Virus record (IMG/VR): IMGVR_UViG_3300009130_001720
Coordinates: 1 to 26,153 of that record
Origin: a virus
Length of the DNA: 26,153 bases
Reading direction: 5' to 3' (one strand)
This document shows positions 8,035 to 20,264 of this stretch, one piece after another; positions within the stretch are counted from its first letter, which is position 1, and each line of letters starts with the position of its first letter. Under the pieces are notes generated by a model. It searched no databases. It had not been told where the DNA came from and saw nothing but the letters and a program-made list of their open reading frames with translations. The position numbers and the translations under genes are program-made.

Positions 8035-8247
8035 TTATTCTTCTTCAGATGAGGCGATAGGTGCATCTACATGAACCACGGGAGGGTTCTTTACATCTAG
8101 TTCACCGCTCTTGGTGCCCCACTTCTTTGTATCCGAGGACTTGACCAAATCCATCGACTTGAAAATCTCTACAACATCGATCTTCTCTAATAGACCTTTT
8201 TGAAGGGTCATCATAATTGCTCCAATAGCTTGATTGCTTAACTTCAT
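8035..8247 (-). CDS. Small hypothetical protein
   Basis: This 70-residue product starts at an ATG with AAGGAG seven bases upstream, one of the best ribosome sites in the window. The first half is helical (AIGAIMMTLQKGLLEKIDVV) and the second half is polar, ending in an acidic tail (SSEEE). The start overlaps the end of the upstream glycosyltransferase gene by four bases (ATGA), and the stop is one base before the zinc-ribbon start, so it belongs to one coupled operon. I see no known domain. Confidence 0.75.
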   Translation of the reverse strand: MKLSNQAIGAIMMTLQKGLLEKIDVVEIFKSMDLVKSSDTKKWGTKSGELDVKNPPVVHVDAPIASSEEE

Positions 8248-9434
8248 TTTTCTATCTCCTTGCTGACATTAGTGATAATATCATTGATTCTAGTATTTAT
8301 TGCCTTCTCGTTATAACGCAAAGACAAATTATTTTGTAGACGGCGAGCCTTGCGCTTTGAAGGTCTCCAATTAGAATAAATCTCGCGCATATTTTCTCGC
8401 AAACTTTTCATATCTGGGTAACACCACTGAGAGTCAGGTGTCAGTACATCTTCCCAAACATCCCTCGGAGCTACATTCTCTAAGGTAAAGGCTAGATCGA
8501 GTGCTGCCAGCTCTTTCTTCTTAGACTTGCCGGTTTTGTGGATACTTAAGAAATCCTTATGTCCTCCCCAGTTAGGCGCAATAACCGGAAGTGCATGACA
8601 AGCAGCCTCAAAGGTGGGAAGCCCAAAACCCTCCCCACGGGAGGTAGATACATAGCACTTAATCTTCTCATGCTCATACAGCGCAGACATCTCGTCATCC
8701 GATAAAGTCCCGTGCAGCAAATAAATTTTACACTTCCGCTCTTCAGTTCCTTTGAGGAACATTCTCAAACGCTCTTCAATGTAATGTCGATCAATATGAG
8801 AACCATTTTTAATAAATGCCTTCAAGACAAGACCTACGTCCTCGTTCTTGAATTCTTCTAAAAAGGCAAAGATGGTCTGCTCTACATTCTTGCGATTAGA
8901 CCACTGTGAGACATTCAAAAAGTTAAATTGAGGCTCAAGGTTAAGTTCAATCGAAGAAGATCTAGAACCCCTGAAAGGGAATCCAATGACATTAAACTTG
9001 TCAGTAATCTCAGCATCATAAGATGCAAAACATTCTTTTGAATGTTCAGAAGGTACAATGACTTGATCCATCATCTTGATTGCCGCTGCCCACGGTTCGG
9101 AGGCTTTCGTCGTTTCAATTCCTGCGAATACGCCAATATTCTTTTTAGCTAGCAAGTCCCATTCAGTTGGCAACTGAACCTGTACAGAGACGTCGAACTC
9201 CATGTTCTGAAGTTCTCTAGCGTGACCGGCGGCGACGGTCTTCATAATGATTCCATCAATCCAATTCCGCTCGTCATTGTCTTCAAAAAGCCAACCAGTT
9301 TCGCCCCAGCCCGTGTTCACAAGGTAGAGGTTATAATCCTGTTCTTGGGCGCGGAGAGCACGCAATACAGCCCTACAATGCTCCCCATACCCCGACCGGG
9401 AAAGTGCCGGTCCTCTTATAATAATATTCTTCAT
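8244..9434 (-). CDS. GT4-type glycosyltransferase (GT-B fold)
   Basis: This 396-residue protein has the two-lobe layout of GT-B enzymes. The N-terminus (GPALSRSGYGEHCRAVLRAL) carries the glycine-rich acceptor-side loop, IVPSEHSKECF is the usual mid-protein turn, and the C-terminal lobe has FNFLNVSQWSNRKNVEQTIF followed by the donor-binding E-x7-E motif in GEGFGLPTFEAACHALPVIA (about residues 265-285). GT4 enzymes move a sugar from a nucleotide-sugar to an acceptor with retention. Here the acceptor could be phage DNA, a virion protein or host surface glycan; the sequence does not decide. It follows a second glycosyltransferase gene by four bases, so the two probably act in one pathway. No signal peptide is visible, so it should be cytoplasmic. 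Confidence 0.88.
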   Translation of the reverse strand: MKNIIIRGPALSRSGYGEHCRAVLRALRAQEQDYNLYLVNTGWGETGWLFEDNDERNWIDGIIMKTVAAGHARELQNMEFDVSVQVQLPTEWDLLAKKNIGVFAGIETTKASEPWAAAIKMMDQVIVPSEHSKECFASYDAEITDKFNVIGFPFRGSRSSSIELNLEPQFNFLNVSQWSNRKNVEQTIFAFLEEFKNEDVGLVLKAFIKNGSHIDRHYIEERLRMFLKGTEERKCKIYLLHGTLSDDEMSALYEHEKIKCYVSTSRGEGFGLPTFEAACHALPVIAPNWGGHKDFLSIHKTGKSKKKELAALDLAFTLENVAPRDVWEDVLTPDSQWCYPDMKSLRENMREIYSNWRPSKRKARRLQNNLSLRYNEKAINTRINDIITNVSKEIEK

Positions 9435-9438
9435 CTGC

Positions 9439-10704
9439 TTATCCTACCTCTTTCAATTCCCAAGAGACATAGTTTTTACGACTTGCCCAAGAGCCAGATT
9501 CTTCATGCAATTTTGTAAGAACTTCATCCCACTTTTGTGCAAAACTACTCAAACTATAATTTGCTTCTAGGTGCTTTCTGCCTTGAGCGCCGAGATCTTG
9601 TAGCTTTTGGGGACCTGCATTATACATTTCCCTCAAGGCATTAATAAAGTCGTCCTTGCTAATTCTGTCTTCAAAAATATATGGAACCTCCTGAGAGCCT
9701 ATAACAGCCTTTGAAGAAGGTGTGATTCCAACACCGAATGTTTGTACGCCATCCGTAACCTGCTCTTGAAGACCTCCAGTGAGTGTTACAATGATGGGGG
9801 TCTCGCACGCTAAAGATTCAAAGGTAGCAAGCCCGAACCCTTCCGCGTCAGCAATATTAATCGTACAATCTGCAATATTATACAAATACGCCATCTTCTC
9901 AGGAGGGTACTTCATGGGAGAAATCATAACCTCTCCTTGGTTCATATCAATGTGGTCTAAAACTGTCTCTAGATCAGGTCCATGTGGGTCTTTGGGGTCC
10001 GTATGCATAAGCAAGCAGGCTTTATCGTGACCAATCTCATCCAGAAATTCTTTAAACCACCATACAACGCTGTTAGATTGCTTTCTCTTTGCATTACGAT
10101 TATTCCAAAAGAAGATAAAACGGTCATCAGTATCAGCAAAATGGGCAGACTTAAACATTGCGAGGTCCTCCTCTTCAAGCTTCTTATAGATATCCATATC
10201 TACCGTATGAGGGATATAACACTCTTCAACAGTTGGAGCAACTGTTTGCACAACATCACTCGTAAGCTTGGAGATGGTAACAATCAAATCATTGGACTCG
10301 TAATACTTTTTATTAAACTGGGGGTATGGATAATTGTCCCACACATGATAATAAACAATGGGCATGTTAGCTCGAATCTCGTCATCTATATGCCAGAGCC
10401 ACGCCCAAAACCTCGGATCTGTCATAATCCACATGATATCCGGCTTTTCAGTACGCATGATAGAACGAACCATTTCCTGAGTTCCAAAACCTTCCACCGG
10501 GAAAATCTTCCAGTCTTCACCATATTTCTCTGTCATGAGTGGAGTCATGTCTTTTGGTTTTGTGGCACCGGCAAGACTAATGAATTCATATTTACCAGTA
10601 TCAAGCATCGCTTCAATAAAATACTTGGTTTGAATCCCCACTCCTGACGGTGCAAGAGGGTGATCGCTCAAAGTCATAATTTTTATTTTTTTGTTATCCG
10701 ACAT
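9439..10704 (-). CDS. GT4-type glycosyltransferase (GT-B fold)
   Basis: This 421-residue protein starts at ATG 10704, where AGGAGAAACAAG gives a strong ribosome site; a longer frame from 10767 would run into the preceding nuclease gene. The N-lobe has KIMTLSDHPLAPSGVGIQTK with the SGVG loop, then PDIMWIMTDPRFWAW and IVTISKLTSDVV. The C-lobe has FFWNNRNAKRKQSNSVVWWF, a typical nucleotide-sugar region, and the E-x7-E motif in DAEGFGLATFESLACETPII (about residues 284-303). It is clearly related in fold to the next gene but not a close copy, so the pair probably add successive sugars or use different donors. The target is unknown: DNA base modification, virion decoration and host-surface change are all possible. 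Confidence 0.88.
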   Translation of the reverse strand: MSDNKKIKIMTLSDHPLAPSGVGIQTKYFIEAMLDTGKYEFISLAGATKPKDMTPLMTEKYGEDWKIFPVEGFGTQEMVRSIMRTEKPDIMWIMTDPRFWAWLWHIDDEIRANMPIVYYHVWDNYPYPQFNKKYYESNDLIVTISKLTSDVVQTVAPTVEECYIPHTVDMDIYKKLEEEDLAMFKSAHFADTDDRFIFFWNNRNAKRKQSNSVVWWFKEFLDEIGHDKACLLMHTDPKDPHGPDLETVLDHIDMNQGEVMISPMKYPPEKMAYLYNIADCTINIADAEGFGLATFESLACETPIIVTLTGGLQEQVTDGVQTFGVGITPSSKAVIGSQEVPYIFEDRISKDDFINALREMYNAGPQKLQDLGAQGRKHLEANYSLSSFAQKWDEVLTKLHEESGSWASRKNYVSWELKEVG

Positions 10705-10714
10705 CTTGTTTCTC

Positions 10715-11488
10715 CTACACCCGAGGGCACTCCTCTGTATCAAAATATTCACATCGTGAACACGCAAGCTTATTTTTTATAAAATTGTTCGAATCGATGT
10801 TTTTAATAGCTTTTGACAAAAGATTAGAAGCGTTTACAAGCTTGCGGTCCCCACTAGAAACTCTAAAAATTTCCACTTGGTCTTTCTTTGCAGTTCTCTT
10901 AAGTAAACCAAAGTGCGTTTCAATCTGCGACAGTTCAATCGAGTGCTTCTTGGCAAAATACTTCTTATATAAAGTTAGCTGATAGGTCACCATCGGATCA
11001 TTCTTCTTGCGATAGTCCCACCCCCATGAGCAACTCTTCCAATCAATTATGTGATAAGTGTCATCACTAGTCTTAATGACTAAATCAATAAAACCCTTAA
11101 AGAGATATTCACTTCCTTCGATCTCCTCATACAACTGTTCTTCGGTTGAAACAATTTCAAACTCACCAAAATGCTCTCGAAGTGCTGGGATTGCTAGCGG
11201 GGCGAGAGCACGACCTTGGGAGAGGAAGCTCTCATACTCACTAGCATCGACGCTGACTCTCTCTTCATCGGGGAGTTTTGATATCTCCTGTTCAAAACAC
11301 GAATCAAAAAACTCTACTTCACAAATCGACTCATTGAGTAGTTTTTGTTCACACACGCTGTGGATAGCAGTTCCAAATGCCGTATATTTATTTCCGGCGA
11401 AGAGGCGAATACCATCTATGTATGCGAGCTTGTAGGAAAAAGGACATTCATTCCACTTCTTTAAAGCTGAAAAAGATAAATGAGCCAC
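10715..11488 (-). CDS. PD-(D/E)XK nuclease of the RecB/Cas4 type with probable Fe-S cluster
   Basis: The conserved order is GTAIH (the RecB-family His), FKGFIDLVIK (catalytic Asp), YHIIDWKS (D-x-K) and QLTLYKKYF (Q-x-x-x-Y). Cys15 in KKWNECPFSYK and three C-terminal cysteines in ACSRCEYFDTEEC form the four-cysteine pattern seen in Cas4 and AddB, which hold a 4Fe-4S cluster. Such nucleases act on single-stranded DNA ends. I chose GTG 11488: it falls one base after the preceding stop, has GGGG six bases upstream, and starts the product as MAHLSFSALKKW, where the domain begins. ATG 11506 (263 residues) is possible but has GAGG directly against it; an even longer frame from 11653 lies inside the preceding gene. 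The role could be recombination, end processing or packaging. Confidence 0.85.
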   Translation of the reverse strand: MAHLSFSALKKWNECPFSYKLAYIDGIRLFAGNKYTAFGTAIHSVCEQKLLNESICEVEFFDSCFEQEISKLPDEERVSVDASEYESFLSQGRALAPLAIPALREHFGEFEIVSTEEQLYEEIEGSEYLFKGFIDLVIKTSDDTYHIIDWKSCSWGWDYRKKNDPMVTYQLTLYKKYFAKKHSIELSQIETHFGLLKRTAKKDQVEIFRVSSGDRKLVNASNLLSKAIKNIDSNNFIKNKLACSRCEYFDTEECPRV

Positions 11489-11917: not shown

Positions 11918-12601
11918 TCAGACCAAAAAATCATTAATCTGTTTAATTTTTTTATACAATACCGGACTCACTTCTTTCAGTGTATCTTCTTCTCCTACAA
12001 AGTACTGTTCTATGCCTTCGGCAAAATATTCAGCTAACGAGGTTGCTGAGTAAGGAGTAGCAAAAAGCCCCAGCGTGAGCGAGACCAAGGTAGGATAACC
12101 TACATCAAACCAAAGAAATTCATCTACTTCTTTATCATATTCAGGGTTCATTAATTTAGAAATATCAAACCCAATAGAAGAACCCGCTTGTGAAAGGTGA
12201 GATGCTAGGCGCTTTCGTTTTCCTAAAAATTCATTCTCCATCTTACCATCATAGTATAGCTCAACTTGAGAGTGTTGTTCAATAGAATGTGCCATTTCGT
12301 GAATTATATTTTTCACGAAGTCCTCTGAAGTGGGGTGAGCGTTGGTAGTATAGATTGCCCCGTCTAAATATACGGAGGACACACCACGTTCCTCTAATTC
12401 AGGAAACTGACCAATATAGATCGCATCTATGTTGTAGAACATACCTTCAGGGACTATGTCTTGAATCTCCTCCAGAGCACTCGCCAAATCTAGCTCAGCG
12501 TCCATATGATCTTTTACCAGAACCATGATTCGCCCATGAAGATTATATTCGCGGCGCGTGGAAGCAGCTTCGGAGAGCTGTGTTTTGATATAAGACGTCA
12601 T
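11918..12601 (-). CDS. Zincin metalloprotease-like protein (HExxH, lethal-factor-like layout)
   Basis: The 227-residue product carries HEMAH at residues 101-105, in the setting VKNIIHEMAHSIEQ of a zinc metalloprotease helix. About 85 residues later SLAEYFAEGIEQYF supplies glutamates in an A-E-Y/F-F-A-E setting, like the third-ligand helix of the anthrax lethal-factor-like (ATLF) group of gluzincin-type peptidases. No signal peptide or membrane segment is present, so the protein probably works in the host cytoplasm or is carried in the virion. The start overlaps the stop of the preceding gene (ATGA). Substrate is unknown. The HExxH and downstream Glu are seen; the ATLF relation is an inference from spacing and context. 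Confidence 0.75.
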   Translation of the reverse strand: MTSYIKTQLSEAASTRREYNLHGRIMVLVKDHMDAELDLASALEEIQDIVPEGMFYNIDAIYIGQFPELEERGVSSVYLDGAIYTTNAHPTSEDFVKNIIHEMAHSIEQHSQVELYYDGKMENEFLGKRKRLASHLSQAGSSIGFDISKLMNPEYDKEVDEFLWFDVGYPTLVSLTLGLFATPYSATSLAEYFAEGIEQYFVGEEDTLKEVSPVLYKKIKQINDFLV

Positions 12602-14425: not shown

Positions 14426-15259
14426 TTGTCCCACCTTCTACTTTATCCTCCATTATTCGCTTTATCCCTCATGTTCGGGTGTTGTTCGTCTTGGTCGCTT
14501 CCTGCGGACCAAAGTCACACTCCACAACCGGCAACGCCTTCAATAGACTTAGAAACATTACGACATTCATTTCTCAAAGTAGAGCGGCGCATTTTTGTTA
14601 GACTGTGCGGACTGGTTGCAAGCGGCGAAATTGAATGTTTGGACACAACTCCCAGTAGGGCTACTGCATCATCCATTGTATACAGTCACGAAAATGACAG
14701 AACTCTAATTTTGACTGCCGGTCACACTTGCGAGCCTGTAACTCAGCTTACCATATTTCATTATATTTATAACGTCCCTCAATCTGACGCTGTAGCGCGG
14801 CAGTTGGCTCGATTCGTTGATATTCGCACTATGGAAAAAGTCACCCAATTTGAATTACGAAACGTCAGAGGTGAGACATTCATTGACGACGTTGAAGTTG
14901 TAGCTGTTGATACGCCATCCGATCTATGTGTCCTATCAATGCCTGAAGCAGAACACATTAACGCAGTCCCGATAGCTGAGAGTGATCCCCGAGTTGGTTC
15001 GCCCATTTGGAATATTGCCGCACCCTATGGCATTTTCAACACTGGTATGGTGCCTATCTTAAGTGGTATATGGTGCGGACGAACCCCAAGCGGACAGTCT
15101 TTTCTCTGTGATCTTCCGGCATCGCCGGGAAGTTCGGGTTCCGCTGTGTTCAATACTGAAGGAGAGATAGTCTCAATCGTGCTCGCTACTAACATGCAAT
15201 TTCATCACGCATCTTTTGGCGCGACGCTCGAACAAATTCGAGACATCATTGGAGAATAA
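14426..15259 (+). CDS. Secreted trypsin-like serine protease, possible lipoprotein
   Basis: This 277-residue product has an N-terminal hydrophobic segment (residues 4-18) ending in GCCSS, which suggests a signal peptide and perhaps a lipid-anchored Cys19, although the lipobox is not perfect and the n-region lacks Lys/Arg. The S1/DegP-like triad is complete: His100 in LTAGHTCE, Asp166 in SDLCVLSM, and Ser237 in SPGSSGSAVFN. There is no PDZ domain. Translation probably starts at TTG with AGGAGAG five bases upstream; no earlier start exists after the phoH promoter region. It reads rightward, opposite to most of the genome, from a divergent spacer shared with phoH. A periplasmic or outer-surface role in the infected cell is inferred; the substrate is unknown. 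Confidence 0.85.
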   Translation: MSHLLLYPPLFALSLMFGCCSSWSLPADQSHTPQPATPSIDLETLRHSFLKVERRIFVRLCGLVASGEIECLDTTPSRATASSIVYSHENDRTLILTAGHTCEPVTQLTIFHYIYNVPQSDAVARQLARFVDIRTMEKVTQFELRNVRGETFIDDVEVVAVDTPSDLCVLSMPEAEHINAVPIAESDPRVGSPIWNIAAPYGIFNTGMVPILSGIWCGRTPSGQSFLCDLPASPGSSGSAVFNTEGEIVSIVLATNMQFHHASFGATLEQIRDIIGE

Positions 15260-15527: not shown

Positions 15528-16124
15528 ATGAGCAAAAAGCTAAAATATAGGAAAATCTTTGCTAAACTGGATTATCTTGTTTTAGAAAAAGAAGAATGTG
15601 AGGTTCTTCTCGAAGATTACACTCAAACATTCCATGAAGACTTTAAAGATGAGTTGGAATTCCTTCAGGTCAAGCAAAATGCTGAGGGGGTTGATCCTCC
15701 AAAGAAAACTGACGAGGATATGGAATCTTCAAAAAATTCAATTTCAAACAAGACCATCACCGCTTTATATAAGAAAATTGCTTTGAAGTGCCACCCAGAT
15801 GTATCAAAGTTAGAAAATGCTGAGGAGCTTTTTATGAAAGCAAAAAAGGCTCACCTTGAGGAAGATTGGGTGACGCTCATAACTCTTGCCAAGGAACTGA
15901 ATATCAATATTCCTGAGTTCTCAGATGAAGAAATCGAACAAATCAATGAACACATGACCAAGATAGAACTAGAGATTGCTATGGCTAAAAATAACAATGT
16001 TTGGTTCTGGGCTAACGCCTCAGAGAGTCAGAAAGAAGATTTTCGAAAGCTCTTTCTGATTAGTCAGAGAATTGATCCTGAGGAATTTGAGGCGTTCCTA
16101 GAGAAGAAAAAGAAAGAAGAATAG
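15528..16124 (+). CDS. J-domain (DnaJ-like) protein
   Basis: The 198-residue product contains a J-domain core in its middle: TITALYKKIALKCHPDVSK with the HPD motif at residues 89-91, preceded by the usual basic helix II and followed by a helix (AEELFMKAKKAHLEEDW). J-domains stimulate the ATPase of DnaK/Hsp70. The N-terminal 75 residues are charged and helical and the C-terminal part is helical and ends in a Lys/Glu tail; no Gly/Phe or zinc-finger region is present, so it is a minimal class III J-protein that may redirect host DnaK. I chose ATG 15528 because the longer frame from 15390 lies over the opposite-strand membrane gene. No Shine-Dalgarno is visible before the ATG. The stop touches the 3' end of the tRNA-Thr gene on the other strand. 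Confidence 0.8.
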   Translation: MSKKLKYRKIFAKLDYLVLEKEECEVLLEDYTQTFHEDFKDELEFLQVKQNAEGVDPPKKTDEDMESSKNSISNKTITALYKKIALKCHPDVSKLENAEELFMKAKKAHLEEDWVTLITLAKELNINIPEFSDEEIEQINEHMTKIELEIAMAKNNNVWFWANASESQKEDFRKLFLISQRIDPEEFEAFLEKKKKEE

Positions 16125-16197
16125 AGCCACTTGTCAGAGTCGAACTGACGACCTATGGTTTACAAAACCAGTGCTCTACCAACTGAGCTAAAGTGGC
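16125..16197 (-). tRNA. tRNA-Thr (anticodon UGU)
   Basis: On the minus strand the 73 bases fold as a full cloverleaf: acceptor GCCACTT with AAGTGGC, D-arm GCTC-AGTTGGTA-GAGC, anticodon loop TTTGTAA with anticodon TGT, and TpsiC arm GTCAG-TTCGACT-CTGAC. The discriminator base is U, and CCA is not encoded. The lowest anticodon-stem pair (C-U) is mismatched. The 3' end abuts the stop codon of the convergent J-domain gene. It would read ACA codons. Confidence 0.92.
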
Positions 16198-16378: not shown

Positions 16379-16453
16379 TGGCTCCGACGGATGGGCTCGA
16401 ACCACCGACCAGACGATTAACAGTCGTCCGCTCTACCACTGAGCTACGTCGGA
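16379..16453 (-). tRNA. tRNA-Asn (anticodon GUU), CCA encoded
   Basis: On the minus strand the sequence forms a complete cloverleaf: acceptor TCCGACG with CGTCGGA, D-arm GCTC-AGTGGTA-GAGC, anticodon stem GACGA/TCGTC around CTGTTAA with anticodon GTT, and TpsiC arm GGTGG-TTCGAGC-CCATC. The discriminator is G and the 3' CCA is encoded. It lies eight bases after the stop of the DUF1599 gene and is followed by a strong terminator. Confidence 0.95.
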
Positions 16454-17269: not shown

Positions 17270-20005
17270 TTAAATTTCTCCTTTGATATCTACCATTTCT
17301 TCCTTCTCTTCTTCATACTCAGGTGTTGTCGGTTCAGGAAGAATATCTGACAATTCATCTTCAAATTTGTCAAAGTATAATTTGATATTAGTTATTAAAT
17401 AGTCATAGAATAGTTCTCTATCCATGTCATTTTCTAACAACGCATAAGCGTCAACTATTTGATTTTCTATCTTTTCAAAAGTGTTGATAGCAAAGTTTCT
17501 TCCCGTGGCTTCATCAGCATCGCCAGGAATTCCACCAAATTGCCCCAAATCATCGCTTGGGCTACGGGCATCGATATCAATGAACTGTTCCCCATCGACA
17601 ATGTCTTCTTCCTCGCCCACTTCAACTTCCAATTCGGCAAGATGAACATCTAAGTCTTCTAAACCTGCTTGGTCTTCAATGCTGGTACCAGTTGCGTCCT
17701 GAGCCGCCTTTGTAGGAGCCAAGGTATTCTGTACAGCATTAATGATATGAGAACGGAAAGATTCTCTTTGTGAGGCACTGGTGGTAAGTTGCTTAAAGTG
17801 ATCTTCCAGTATCGGGACAATTTTCTTCAGCAAATCTTCTAGTACGTTGATGCCGGTCGAATGACTCGGGACTTCATCATTTACTGCGGTTTCAGCAAGC
17901 AAACGCCTGATGATTTTTCGCAACTCCCTCTCTTCTTGGACACCGCGCCTCTGTCTCTCTTGCAAAGATTTTTTTATAGCCTTGGATACCAGCTCTCTCA
18001 GCTCCAGCTCTTCGCGACACTGCTTTATCAATTTGTTTCTATCAATTGCCATATTTGTATCTTCACTGTTACTACTACTAAATAGTCTAATATTTTCTTC
18101 AAGCACCTGATTTATCATTTCATATATAGTCTCAGACGTTTGAGCTTTAGGCATGAGATTACGCAAAAGCTCTTCGCCGTCGCCACGAAGCTTCACCGGC
18201 AGGTATTCCACGAAAGTCTCCACATCATTTTCAGAGATAGCTTTCCGCATTGTTGAGGCGCTCAAAGGCTCTCCATTTCTCCCATCTGTAAAGTCTTCAC
18301 CTGACGGACTAATAGCGTAGTCGCCTCCTGCGAGTACGGTGACTCCTTCGCGAGCGTGCTTTTGTACGTTCTTCGAAAACCTTTCTTGGTCCCCTCCTTT
18401 AGTGCTTACTCCCAAGACCACTGTCTCTCCTGGTTGAGCCCAATCAGGATTATCTTCTTCATTCTGAATAAAATGAAAAGAGGCTCCCACCGGAGAATTT
18501 ACCGGGGATTCCAATACTGTCACTTTTCCAGCAAGACCATAGGCTTTTAAATATTCCTCCCAAAGATCTGCCGATTGTTCGAATGAAATACTTTTCCCAT
18601 CTGGCATTTTGCGCGGAAGAGGGGACATAAAAACCACCACTCGGTCTGCCATATTCGCATATGCCATAACCATTGCAAGGTGACCACGGTGCGGAGGCTT
18701 AAAAGCTCCCGGCACAACTGCAACATCTACTTTTTTAGATTCAGAGATAACACCTGTCTCTTTGATCATGGGAGGGATATTACCTCGACCATATTTAAAC
18801 AGCCCAAGAATTTGATTGATTGGTGCAAAGTTTCCTGTAAATTTATAAGTGTGCCCATCATAATCAAAAACAAAACCCTCTGCCGCCGTAGAAACATTTT
18901 CGGCTGTTTTGAGTTTTGCCATTTGTTTTTTCAATACTTCAATTGCTTCTTCGTTACCGGAACTTTCAATAGCCTTTATTGCTGTATCTACCTCTTGGCG
19001 AAGGCGCGACACTTCTTCCTTGTTATTTAAAACGAACGCGCTTTCCAGCCCCTCAAGCATCGCTACAGAGAAATCGTGGACAACCTGCTCCAAAGGAAAA
19101 ATAGCCTGTGACAATAGAGACTTGTTCTTTACAATTGCCCTGACCGCCTCTTTTTGTTCAGGGTTTAAATTTTTTACAAGCTGGGTAAGGGTCTTACCCC
19201 CCGGCAACTTCAACAAACGCTTTAAAACGTCCTTCTGAGTCGATTGCGGGGTATTTGTGGATGCGACTACAGGTACCAATCTCGCTATCATATATTCGGT
19301 AACCGTACTGTTATCAGAAAGACCGTTTTCTCCCATTATCTTATCAAGAGATACGAGAGCATTTTGAAGCGCAACATCATCACTTAGGGCTTCCAATTCT
19401 CGAATAGCATTAATTTGAACACTATAGTCCGCTTTGGATTCTTGATCCTGAGCTTGCTCTAGCGCCCTCTGAAGGAGATCCACGTTTTGTGACGCATCCT
19501 CTGCCTTCGATCCCGTTTCTTTATCAAATCTTCCGTGACCTTTTTGGTGGATTACTAACGTCTTAGTATCGTAATTCACAACATTGGGTGAACGTGGGTC
19601 CATCAACTCAGCGTTGAAATATATATCAGCATCCTCTCCAAAGATATTAATCTGTTGCTCAGGAGTAAGGGATTCAACTGCTTTTTCGAAAGCGTCAAAA
19701 GCTTCTACAAAGACTTTGGTGAGGTCACCCCGACCGGCGAATTTACTCGCTAGCTCTTGTGCGTCTAACCCTCCGGCTTTAATATTGCCTTTGTTTCGGG
19801 CTGCTTTAGCTTTGCCGTCTTTAACGGAATAAGAGACGAACAAGTTCTGCCCATCAGTTTTTTCAGTGCCTTTTAGCTCCCCGCGAGATGCCTTACTAAA
19901 GACATCTTTCATTTGAGCAAAAGTGAGATCTCCATTGTCATAGAGGTGGGACATATGCCCAGCTACACCGCCTTCCAAAAGTATTTTTTTACTGTTCTTC
20001 GTCAT
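17270..20005 (-). CDS. Fusion of ligase-like adenylyltransferase and HxGH nucleotidyltransferase, with C-terminal helical domain
   Basis: The 911-residue product has three parts. Residues 1-400 carry covalent nucleotidyltransferase (DNA/RNA ligase) motifs: Lys49 in EKTDGQNL, Arg70 in AARNKG, Glu133 in FNAELMDP, Glu376 in AAEGFVF, and Lys388 in TYKFTGNF. Motifs III and IV are about 240 residues apart because of a helical insertion. Residues about 428-610 form an HxGH nucleotidyltransferase (GAFKPPHRGHLAMV, His439/His442; later LSASTMRKAI), like NMN adenylyltransferases and cytidylyltransferases. Residues about 652-911 are helical then acidic and start at an internal Met (MAIDRNKLIKQC). ATG 20005 has AAGG just upstream and overlaps the previous gene by 17 bases; a longer frame from 20035 is rejected. 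Nucleic-acid end joining or nucleotide-cofactor chemistry is inferred. Confidence 0.83.
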   Translation of the reverse strand: MTKNSKKILLEGGVAGHMSHLYDNGDLTFAQMKDVFSKASRGELKGTEKTDGQNLFVSYSVKDGKAKAARNKGNIKAGGLDAQELASKFAGRGDLTKVFVEAFDAFEKAVESLTPEQQINIFGEDADIYFNAELMDPRSPNVVNYDTKTLVIHQKGHGRFDKETGSKAEDASQNVDLLQRALEQAQDQESKADYSVQINAIRELEALSDDVALQNALVSLDKIMGENGLSDNSTVTEYMIARLVPVVASTNTPQSTQKDVLKRLLKLPGGKTLTQLVKNLNPEQKEAVRAIVKNKSLLSQAIFPLEQVVHDFSVAMLEGLESAFVLNNKEEVSRLRQEVDTAIKAIESSGNEEAIEVLKKQMAKLKTAENVSTAAEGFVFDYDGHTYKFTGNFAPINQILGLFKYGRGNIPPMIKETGVISESKKVDVAVVPGAFKPPHRGHLAMVMAYANMADRVVVFMSPLPRKMPDGKSISFEQSADLWEEYLKAYGLAGKVTVLESPVNSPVGASFHFIQNEEDNPDWAQPGETVVLGVSTKGGDQERFSKNVQKHAREGVTVLAGGDYAISPSGEDFTDGRNGEPLSASTMRKAISENDVETFVEYLPVKLRGDGEELLRNLMPKAQTSETIYEMINQVLEENIRLFSSSNSEDTNMAIDRNKLIKQCREELELRELVSKAIKKSLQERQRRGVQEERELRKIIRRLLAETAVNDEVPSHSTGINVLEDLLKKIVPILEDHFKQLTTSASQRESFRSHIINAVQNTLAPTKAAQDATGTSIEDQAGLEDLDVHLAELEVEVGEEEDIVDGEQFIDIDARSPSDDLGQFGGIPGDADEATGRNFAINTFEKIENQIVDAYALLENDMDRELFYDYLITNIKLYFDKFEDELSDILPEPTTPEYEEEKEEMVDIKGEI

Positions 20006-20264
20006 TACCTTCTCTAAGGCTCTGCACTTCTTCAAGCACTTTTACTTGCTCTTCTAGAGTGGTGATTTTATTCTCTAGGTTGCGTGTAAGCTTACGCACC
20101 TCTTTGATATTGTGGCGAATCATTTCTACGTTACGATTTCCGCGTTGCGTTCGTAAATTCAAACCACCCAATAACTCCTCTATTGTCTGGAGATACATTC
20201 TAATAGTTGGTTTGGTGGTTCCTTCATTTATGAAGTTCCTTGTCATTTTTCTCCAATTTATCAT
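19989..20264 (-). CDS. Coiled-coil protein of unknown function
   Basis: The 91-residue product starts MINWRKMTRNFINEG and ends in a long heptad-like helix (KLTRNLENKITTLEEQVKVL) that should form a coiled coil. Two starts are possible: ATG 20264 with GAGGAAG about eight bases upstream, or ATG 20246 with GGAG five bases upstream; I keep the longer. It overlaps the ligase-nucleotidyltransferase gene by 17 bases and follows the large adhesin gene by 16 bases, so it is co-transcribed with both. No known family is visible. Confidence 0.75.
   Translation of the reverse strand: MINWRKMTRNFINEGTTKPTIRMYLQTIEELLGGLNLRTQRGNRNVEMIRHNIKEVRKLTRNLENKITTLEEQVKVLEEVQSLREGNDEEQ

Follow-up and report, generated by a model that had tools for sequence, protein, structure and literature searches.

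A 911-residue protein encoded in IMG/VR virus record IMGVR_UViG_3300009130_001720 (26,153 bases, analyzed over its full length and called the window here) joins a ligase-fold covalent nucleotidyltransferase and an HxGH-type nucleotidyltransferase in one chain, and the pair constitutes a widespread phage family that is apparently undescribed. With middling confidence, we interpret the protein as a bifunctional nucleic-acid end-processing or repair enzyme, most likely for RNA. The initial annotation had read both enzyme types in this chain, and the predicted folds, the invariant motifs and repeated fusions among relatives all agree with it; K49, R70, E133, E376, K388, the HxGH motif at 439-442 and the STMR motif at 584-587 lie exactly where it had placed them (Table 1).

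The fused gene and its surroundings

An artefact of frame or strand is excluded, as the open reading frame is intact and homologous along its full length; an alternative TTG start at 20035 would add 10 residues, giving 921. The coiled-coil-like gene upstream is a conserved neighbor, recovered as the same cluster in 20 loci and by additional direct blastp matches.

Table 1. Features of the fused gene and its neighbors, in window coordinates
Feature	Position	Strand	Basis or remark
Fused-protein gene	17270..20005	minus	ORF calling; 911 aa, ATG at 20005, stop 17270-17272
91-aa coiled-coil-like gene, upstream	19989..20264	minus	Overlaps fused-gene start
Ligase-fold covalent nucleotidyltransferase domain, residues 1-405	18791..20005	minus	AlphaFold2 and structure search
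Motif I EKTDG, residues 48-52, nucleophile K49	19850..19864	minus	57/57 homologues
R70 in ARNK, motif Ia position	19796..19798	minus	57/57 homologues
E133, motif III position	19607..19609	minus	56/57 homologues
Mainly helical insertion between motifs III and IV, residues ~172-365	18911..19492	minus	Model secondary structure
Motif IV EGFVF, residues 376-380	18866..18880	minus	E376 in 57/57
Motif V YKFTG, residues 387-391 (K388)	18833..18847	minus	K388 in 57/57
HxGH nucleotidyltransferase domain, residues ~425-620	18146..18733	minus	AlphaFold2, fold and profile matches
HxGH motif HRGH, residues 439-442	18680..18691	minus	H442 in 30/31
STMR motif (SxTxxR), residues 584-587	18245..18256	minus	R587 in 29/31
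C-terminal region, residues ~641-911	17273..18085	minus	blastp over loci
tRNA-Asn	16379..16453	minus	Downstream of fused gene
tRNA-Thr	16124..16197	minus	Downstream of fused gene

Elsewhere in the window, positions 11918-12601 encode a small metallopeptidase-like protein (IHEMAH; sub-threshold M90/ATLF Pfam matches) that is conserved in 11 loci, and an ORF on the plus strand at 14426-15259 resembles a secreted trypsin-like serine protease (TAGH, GSSGS), with a similar-looking protein near the gene in other ligase-first loci. Two adjoining glycosyltransferase genes at 8244-10767, both matching phrog_2170, look like tandem paralogues. Their presence, together with the link between HIGH nucleotidyltransferases and NDP-sugars in cyanophages made in PMC7824862, would suit a role in surface chemistry, in which the HxGH half makes an NDP-sugar that the ligase-fold half transfers in the service of the glycosyltransferases. 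We judge this very improbable, given that the glycosyltransferases lie 7 kb off, that such genes are near the fused gene in only a few relatives, and that the catalytic motifs of the ligase fold are intact.

The ligase-fold domain

The ligase core anticipated for residues 1-400 was recovered in the AlphaFold2 model of residues 1-405 (pLDDT 91.7, pTM 0.89). All 50 entries listed in a VIA-align comparison of this model with the PDB are nucleic-acid ligases or capping enzymes, with Naegleria Rnl5 (6vt0) at the top (Z 9.4, 4.0 Å over 188 residues), followed by T4 Rnl1 (Z 8.6), T. brucei REL1 (8.6), T4 Rnl2 (8.4) and Trl1 (8.0). Foldseek matches to the PDB are weak (E 0.013 to 0.08), yet each of the first eleven rows is a ligase. 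Motifs I, Ia, III, IV and V are all present in the expected order (R70, E133, E376-G377, K388), and K49, the motif lysine singled out in the initial annotation, is invariant in 57 of 57 aligned homologues along with D51, G52, N54, R70, E376 and K388; H17 and H20, upstream of motif I, are invariant in the same alignment. Motif V of the window protein reads KxT with a single lysine, whereas classic ligases have KxK, and motifs III and IV are spaced 243 residues apart because a mainly helical insert of ~190 residues separates them. The Z values alone could reflect a common arrangement, but taken with motif order and invariance they place the domain securely in the superfamily, and residue invariance together with the predicted fold excludes a chance motif.

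Kinship to known ligases is nonetheless remote, since the window protein has no match to any Pfam family of RNA or DNA ligases (E up to 1) and the best Foldseek E value against the PDB is only 0.013. Sequence-profile searches of the PDB with the ligase half found no ligase, and library searches of the first half matched nothing useful.

These structural matches bear on the main rival to an RNA role, namely that the ligase half substitutes for a DNA ligase, sealing nicks in the DNA of large phages otherwise without a ligase, with the HxGH half providing or regenerating an adenylylated factor. We consider this unlikely. AsfvLIG does appear among the top Foldseek rows, and the gene content of the 18 phage records carrying the module is in keeping with a vacancy: an ATP-dependent DNA ligase is found in two and an NAD+ ligase in one, and 13 are without a canonical ligase, although several records may be incomplete. 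The top structural matches, however, are RNA ligases, and no separate OB-type domain was seen among the model elements within the first 405 residues. Two records, moreover, also carry canonical RNA ligases; a canonical RNA ligase was scored in 4 of the 18, one of the four being better read as a DNA ligase.

The HxGH domain

The second half belongs securely to the T/HxGH nucleotidyltransferase superfamily. Its AlphaFold2 model (pLDDT 92.9) aligns with PPAT (3otw; Z 15.3, 2.8 Å over 150 residues) and with NadM-type NMNAT (2r5w; Z 14.8), and its profile matches PPAT and NMNAT at E 7.5e-11 to 3e-10 (NadM-type NMNATs at 3e-10), the two enzymes, of the kinds that make NAD and coenzyme A, tying in profile and fold alike. 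NCBIfam equivalog cut-offs were not reached by the window protein, and library searches of the second half gave sub-threshold or weak cytidylyltransferase-like matches. The Foldseek list for this model also includes TmcAL, an enzyme of the HxGH type with tRNA as its substrate. Across an alignment of 31 HxGH sequences, G433, F435 and P437 are invariant alongside the near-invariant H442 and R587 (Table 1). The first histidine of the motif varies (18 H, 8 G, 5 T), as the first motif position does in T/HxGH enzymes, and one large group of homologues reads GxHH at this position.

The initial annotation had suggested, as one option, that one half makes or salvages the cofactor used by the other; the HxGH half would then be an NMN adenylyltransferase, providing NAD+ for the ligase half or against NAD+-depleting defenses. 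The part of this proposal that stands is the fit of the HxGH half to NadM-type NMNATs, and PMC9503650 does report NadM, NadR and NadV in phages. As a whole we find the proposal distinctly improbable. PPAT fits the HxGH half equally well, the HxGH subfamilies have been exchanged among relatives (see below), and the nearest folds of the ligase half are ATP-dependent RNA ligases. Moreover, the 48 residues before K49 leave too little room for the Ia domain with which NAD+ ligases bind NMN, and a search of the window protein for the LigA Ia domain (PF01653) gave no match. A nicotinamide phosphoribosyltransferase (NadV-type) gene occurs in only one of the 18 phage records, and phage NMNATs are paired in PMC9503650 with Nudix or NR-kinase domains and not with ligases.

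A recurrent fusion in phages

Among annotated phages, matches to the first half come from only three records, those of Microcystis phage Mel-JY01 and of two uncultured huge phages: Mel-JY01 carries both domains in reverse order in a single 639-aa protein, LR756508 has a 915-aa protein composed of ParB_N, HxGH and ligase domains, and in LR756500 a 421-aa ligase adjoins a 653-aa gene that ends in an HxGH domain. The window protein as a single query found no relative among viral contigs, but an alignment of it with these three homologues, used to search IMG/VR, matched at least 581 related stretches, and the best 80 of these were retained. They contain 58 complete ligase ORFs, 54 of them fused (28 ligase-HxGH, 20 HxGH-ligase and 6 kinase-HxGH-ligase) and four with the ligase alone, in a census whose seeds were mostly fused themselves and in which a few loci are near duplicates. 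A single odd fusion is thereby excluded. A cellular origin was also considered and rejected, the eight genome-contig loci all coming from metagenome-assembled genomes, mostly on short contigs; a plasmid search gave no match to the family.

Annotated members are labeled hypothetical protein or cytidyltransferase. The latter label is probably wrong for Syn19 gp185 (L093, 7067-8866), which shows no HxGH motif on reading and was not used. The accessible text of PMC7824862 and PMC9503650 does not describe the ligase-HxGH pair, and the literature searched yielded no paper combining ligase and HxGH enzymes in phages. What the initial annotation presented as a new arrangement in one protein is a large family.

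In the ligase tree, all ligase-first proteins fall in one clade (25 tips, support 0.99) and all HxGH-first proteins in a second (support 0.98), which also holds the unfused LR756500 ligase. From these two order-specific clades we conclude that the fusion arose at least twice, in opposite domain orders. The HxGH tree does not track this split: in L020 and L023, both ligase-first, the HxGH domain is of the type found in the HxGH-first clade, and the HxGH domains of L033 and L014 cluster with the cyanophage type and with LR756500. On these trees, the ligase has stayed paired with an HxGH domain through swaps of that domain among subfamilies, swaps that within one ligase clade took place at the same position in the chain.

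This history bears on whether the two halves need cooperate at all, since domains that share a chain need not share a pathway, and the gene could be a loose string of unrelated effector domains. Relatives do carry ParB_N and an AAT-like hydrolase, a Peptidase_M91-like gene sits beside the locus, roughly half of the relatives encode the counterpart of the window protein's C-terminal region in a gene of its own downstream (blastp over loci), and polyvalent injected phage proteins are described in PMC7824862. Against this, the other domains vary while the ligase-HxGH pair persists in 54 of the 58 complete ORFs from the best 80 of at least 581 stretches, and the pair recurs in both orders, in two separate clades and again with DUF6267. 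A loose string thus seems to us a rather poor prospect.

HxGH-first and kinase-first proteins (L038-L046, L054-L057, L061-L069, L080) start with a short leader that looks helical and has (L/I/F)xE at its end; it recalls capsid-targeting and prohead-protease sites and could mean packaging and injection. Many N termini fit such a leader (LxE near the N terminus), but many ligase-first members start directly at MGG.

DUF6267, a probable distant relative

A search of the ligase-half model against BFVD matched a 591-aa protein of S-PM2 (A0A0M6VVW4, E 2.5e-4), and several lines of comparison suggest that DUF6267 is probably a distant relative of the new ligase family. The K-x-D-G, EGxV and K motifs of DUF6267 are ordered and spaced as in the new family (KWDGAPA, EGYVA and VKLVDR in pelagiphage HTVC008M), and the upstream HxxH motif is shared as well. 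An hhalign comparison of the two families is in register but not significant (E 0.011, where a kinase control gave 0.21), and the DUF6267 profile (PF19782) does not match the window protein.

Gene order is alike as well, with an HxGH gene adjacent to DUF6267 or fused to it, although DUF6267, unlike the new family, is usually a separate gene. HTVC008M encodes in succession DUF6267, a small protein, a P-loop kinase and an HxGH protein; in several cyanophages DUF6267 adjoins or overlaps a gene named cytidyltransferase, beside uvsX, gp41 and mazG; in S-CRM01 the two genes are some genes apart; and in S-PM2 one frame joins the C-terminal half of DUF6267 to an HxGH domain. The S-PM2 record itself (L107 1489-3268, NC_006820) has DUF6267 split over two frames, the second of which continues into the HxGH domain. 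Each of 14 phage records tested has a single copy of the new ligase family and no DUF6267, and 8 records with DUF6267 lack the new family; the two fill the same slot and never occur together in the 22 records. DUF6267 is present in 471 phage records and goes unmentioned in the literature searched, and the new family offers it a candidate role. The position of DUF6267 beside the replication genes of cyanophages fits a role in DNA and counts against the RNA reading.

Accessory domains and neighboring RNA genes

Among the loci from the best 80 of at least 581 stretches, a P-loop kinase is fused in nine ORFs and adjacent in three. The solved structures nearest to its profile are L-seryl-tRNA(Sec) kinase (E 1.3e-3) and 4mde/4gp6 (1.6e-3), which we take to be the kinase domain of C. 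thermocellum Pnkp, with zeta toxin at 0.13, and it also matches zeta/AAA_33 Pfam models. NadR was considered as the parent of the kinase-HxGH pair, and the kinase-profile match list contains no NadR kinase. The kinase is an optional component, because it is present in only 3 of the 18 phage records carrying the module; no polynucleotide kinase was found within this 26 kb fragment. One locus (L076) encodes the ligase fused to a Pol-beta nucleotidyltransferase, five others (L010, L012, L024, L031, L033) have a Pol-beta nucleotidyltransferase gene upstream, and Flavobacterium phage Immuto combines a weak Pol-beta match with an HxGH domain in one protein. Some kinase-HxGH-ligase proteins also have a domain related to AAT acyltransferase, an Ntn hydrolase (L066, residues ~418-680; L087, 3974-4798).

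As in the window, where both are tRNA genes, 17 of 27 ligase-first loci have tRNA or tmRNA genes in the 6 kb downstream of the fused gene, 33 in all, of which 8 are tmRNA. None lies upstream in these 27 loci, and 0 of 51 HxGH-first loci, some of which are cut, have such genes nearby. In 8 of the 27 loci (L006 12800-13161, L011 11148-11504, L022 13474-13763, and L015, L020, L025, L029 and L036) a tmRNA gene follows the fused gene at a distance of 0.3-3.3 kb, and three that were tested score well above the Rfam cut-off. This placement agrees with a link to translation or tRNA, and may also be synteny within one phage group. Both the likeness of the accessory domains to RNA kinases and the tRNA and tmRNA neighbors of the ligase-first clade argue against a DNA ligase substitute.

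Proposed function

Independent fusion in opposite orders is strong comparative evidence that two enzyme classes, with no earlier link between them in the literature searched, work together. Phage RNA repair, as described in PMC7824862 and PMC9503650, joins a ligase and a kinase with other nucleotidyltransferases such as RlaP; the enzymes reported there include Rnl1, Rnl2, kinases and RlaP, besides NadM, NadR and NadV. The option of end repair raised in the initial annotation gains support from the folds, the motifs, the repeated independent fusions, and the optional Pnkp-like kinase and Pol-beta domains. The scarcity of the kinase weighs against RNA end repair, for a full heal-and-seal set is not general.

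For the favored enzyme of RNA ends, the substrates could be, for example, tRNAs cut by host defenses. We infer from fold and motifs that the N-terminal domain would take AMP from ATP onto K49 and pass it to a 5'-phosphate end, which would then be sealed to a 3'-OH in the manner of RNA ligases. The HxGH domain, built like enzymes that place AMP on a phosphomonoester, would act on the same ends, either activating a phosphate terminus or, in reverse, clearing stalled adenylylated ends. In relatives, the P-loop kinase and the Pol-beta nucleotidyltransferase, in the same chain or operon, might add optional healing steps, the former by 5'-OH phosphorylation and the latter by base restoration. All of these reactions and substrates are put forward as proposals, and the role of the HxGH domain is the least certain among them.

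A bolder version holds that the NMNAT/PPAT-type HxGH domain acts directly on polynucleotide ends and forms, with the new RNA-ligase family, a heal-activate-seal machine of large phages. To our knowledge, no PPAT- or NMNAT-type HxGH adenylyltransferase is known to act on polynucleotide ends; if true, such a machine would be without counterpart among known repair systems, and we advance it as a tentative and rather unlikely idea. NMNATs acting on RNA ends are a matter of speculation in PMC8131947, which reports that none was found. The analysis assigns a fold and catalytic residues to a new phage ligase family, and hundreds of phage sequences carry the enzyme pair. That the pairing arose at least three times in water-living phages suggests an unstudied repair or end-joining machine.

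Comparison with known systems

The T4-type and Rnl5-type RNA ligases (Rnl1, Rnl2, Naegleria Rnl, fungal Trl1) share with the window protein the adenylyltransferase fold and motifs I, Ia, III, IV and V in the same order and identity. The window protein differs from them in the lack of a sequence-profile match, in its ~190-residue helical insert, in its lone motif V lysine and in its fused HxGH domain. On the side of the second half, NadM/NadR-type NMNAT and PPAT (CoaD) have the HxGH fold and the T/HxGH and SxTxxR motifs in common with the window domain, but in place of a Nudix or ribosylnicotinamide kinase domain the partner here is a ligase-fold domain. Pnkp, Pnkp1-Rnl-Hen1 and plant-fungal tRNA ligase unite healing and sealing in one chain or complex, and some relatives of the window protein likewise combine kinase and ligase. 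In contrast to these kinase-ligase systems, the kinase is only optional in the new family and absent from the window, no phosphoesterase was found, and the constant partner of the ligase is an HxGH nucleotidyltransferase.
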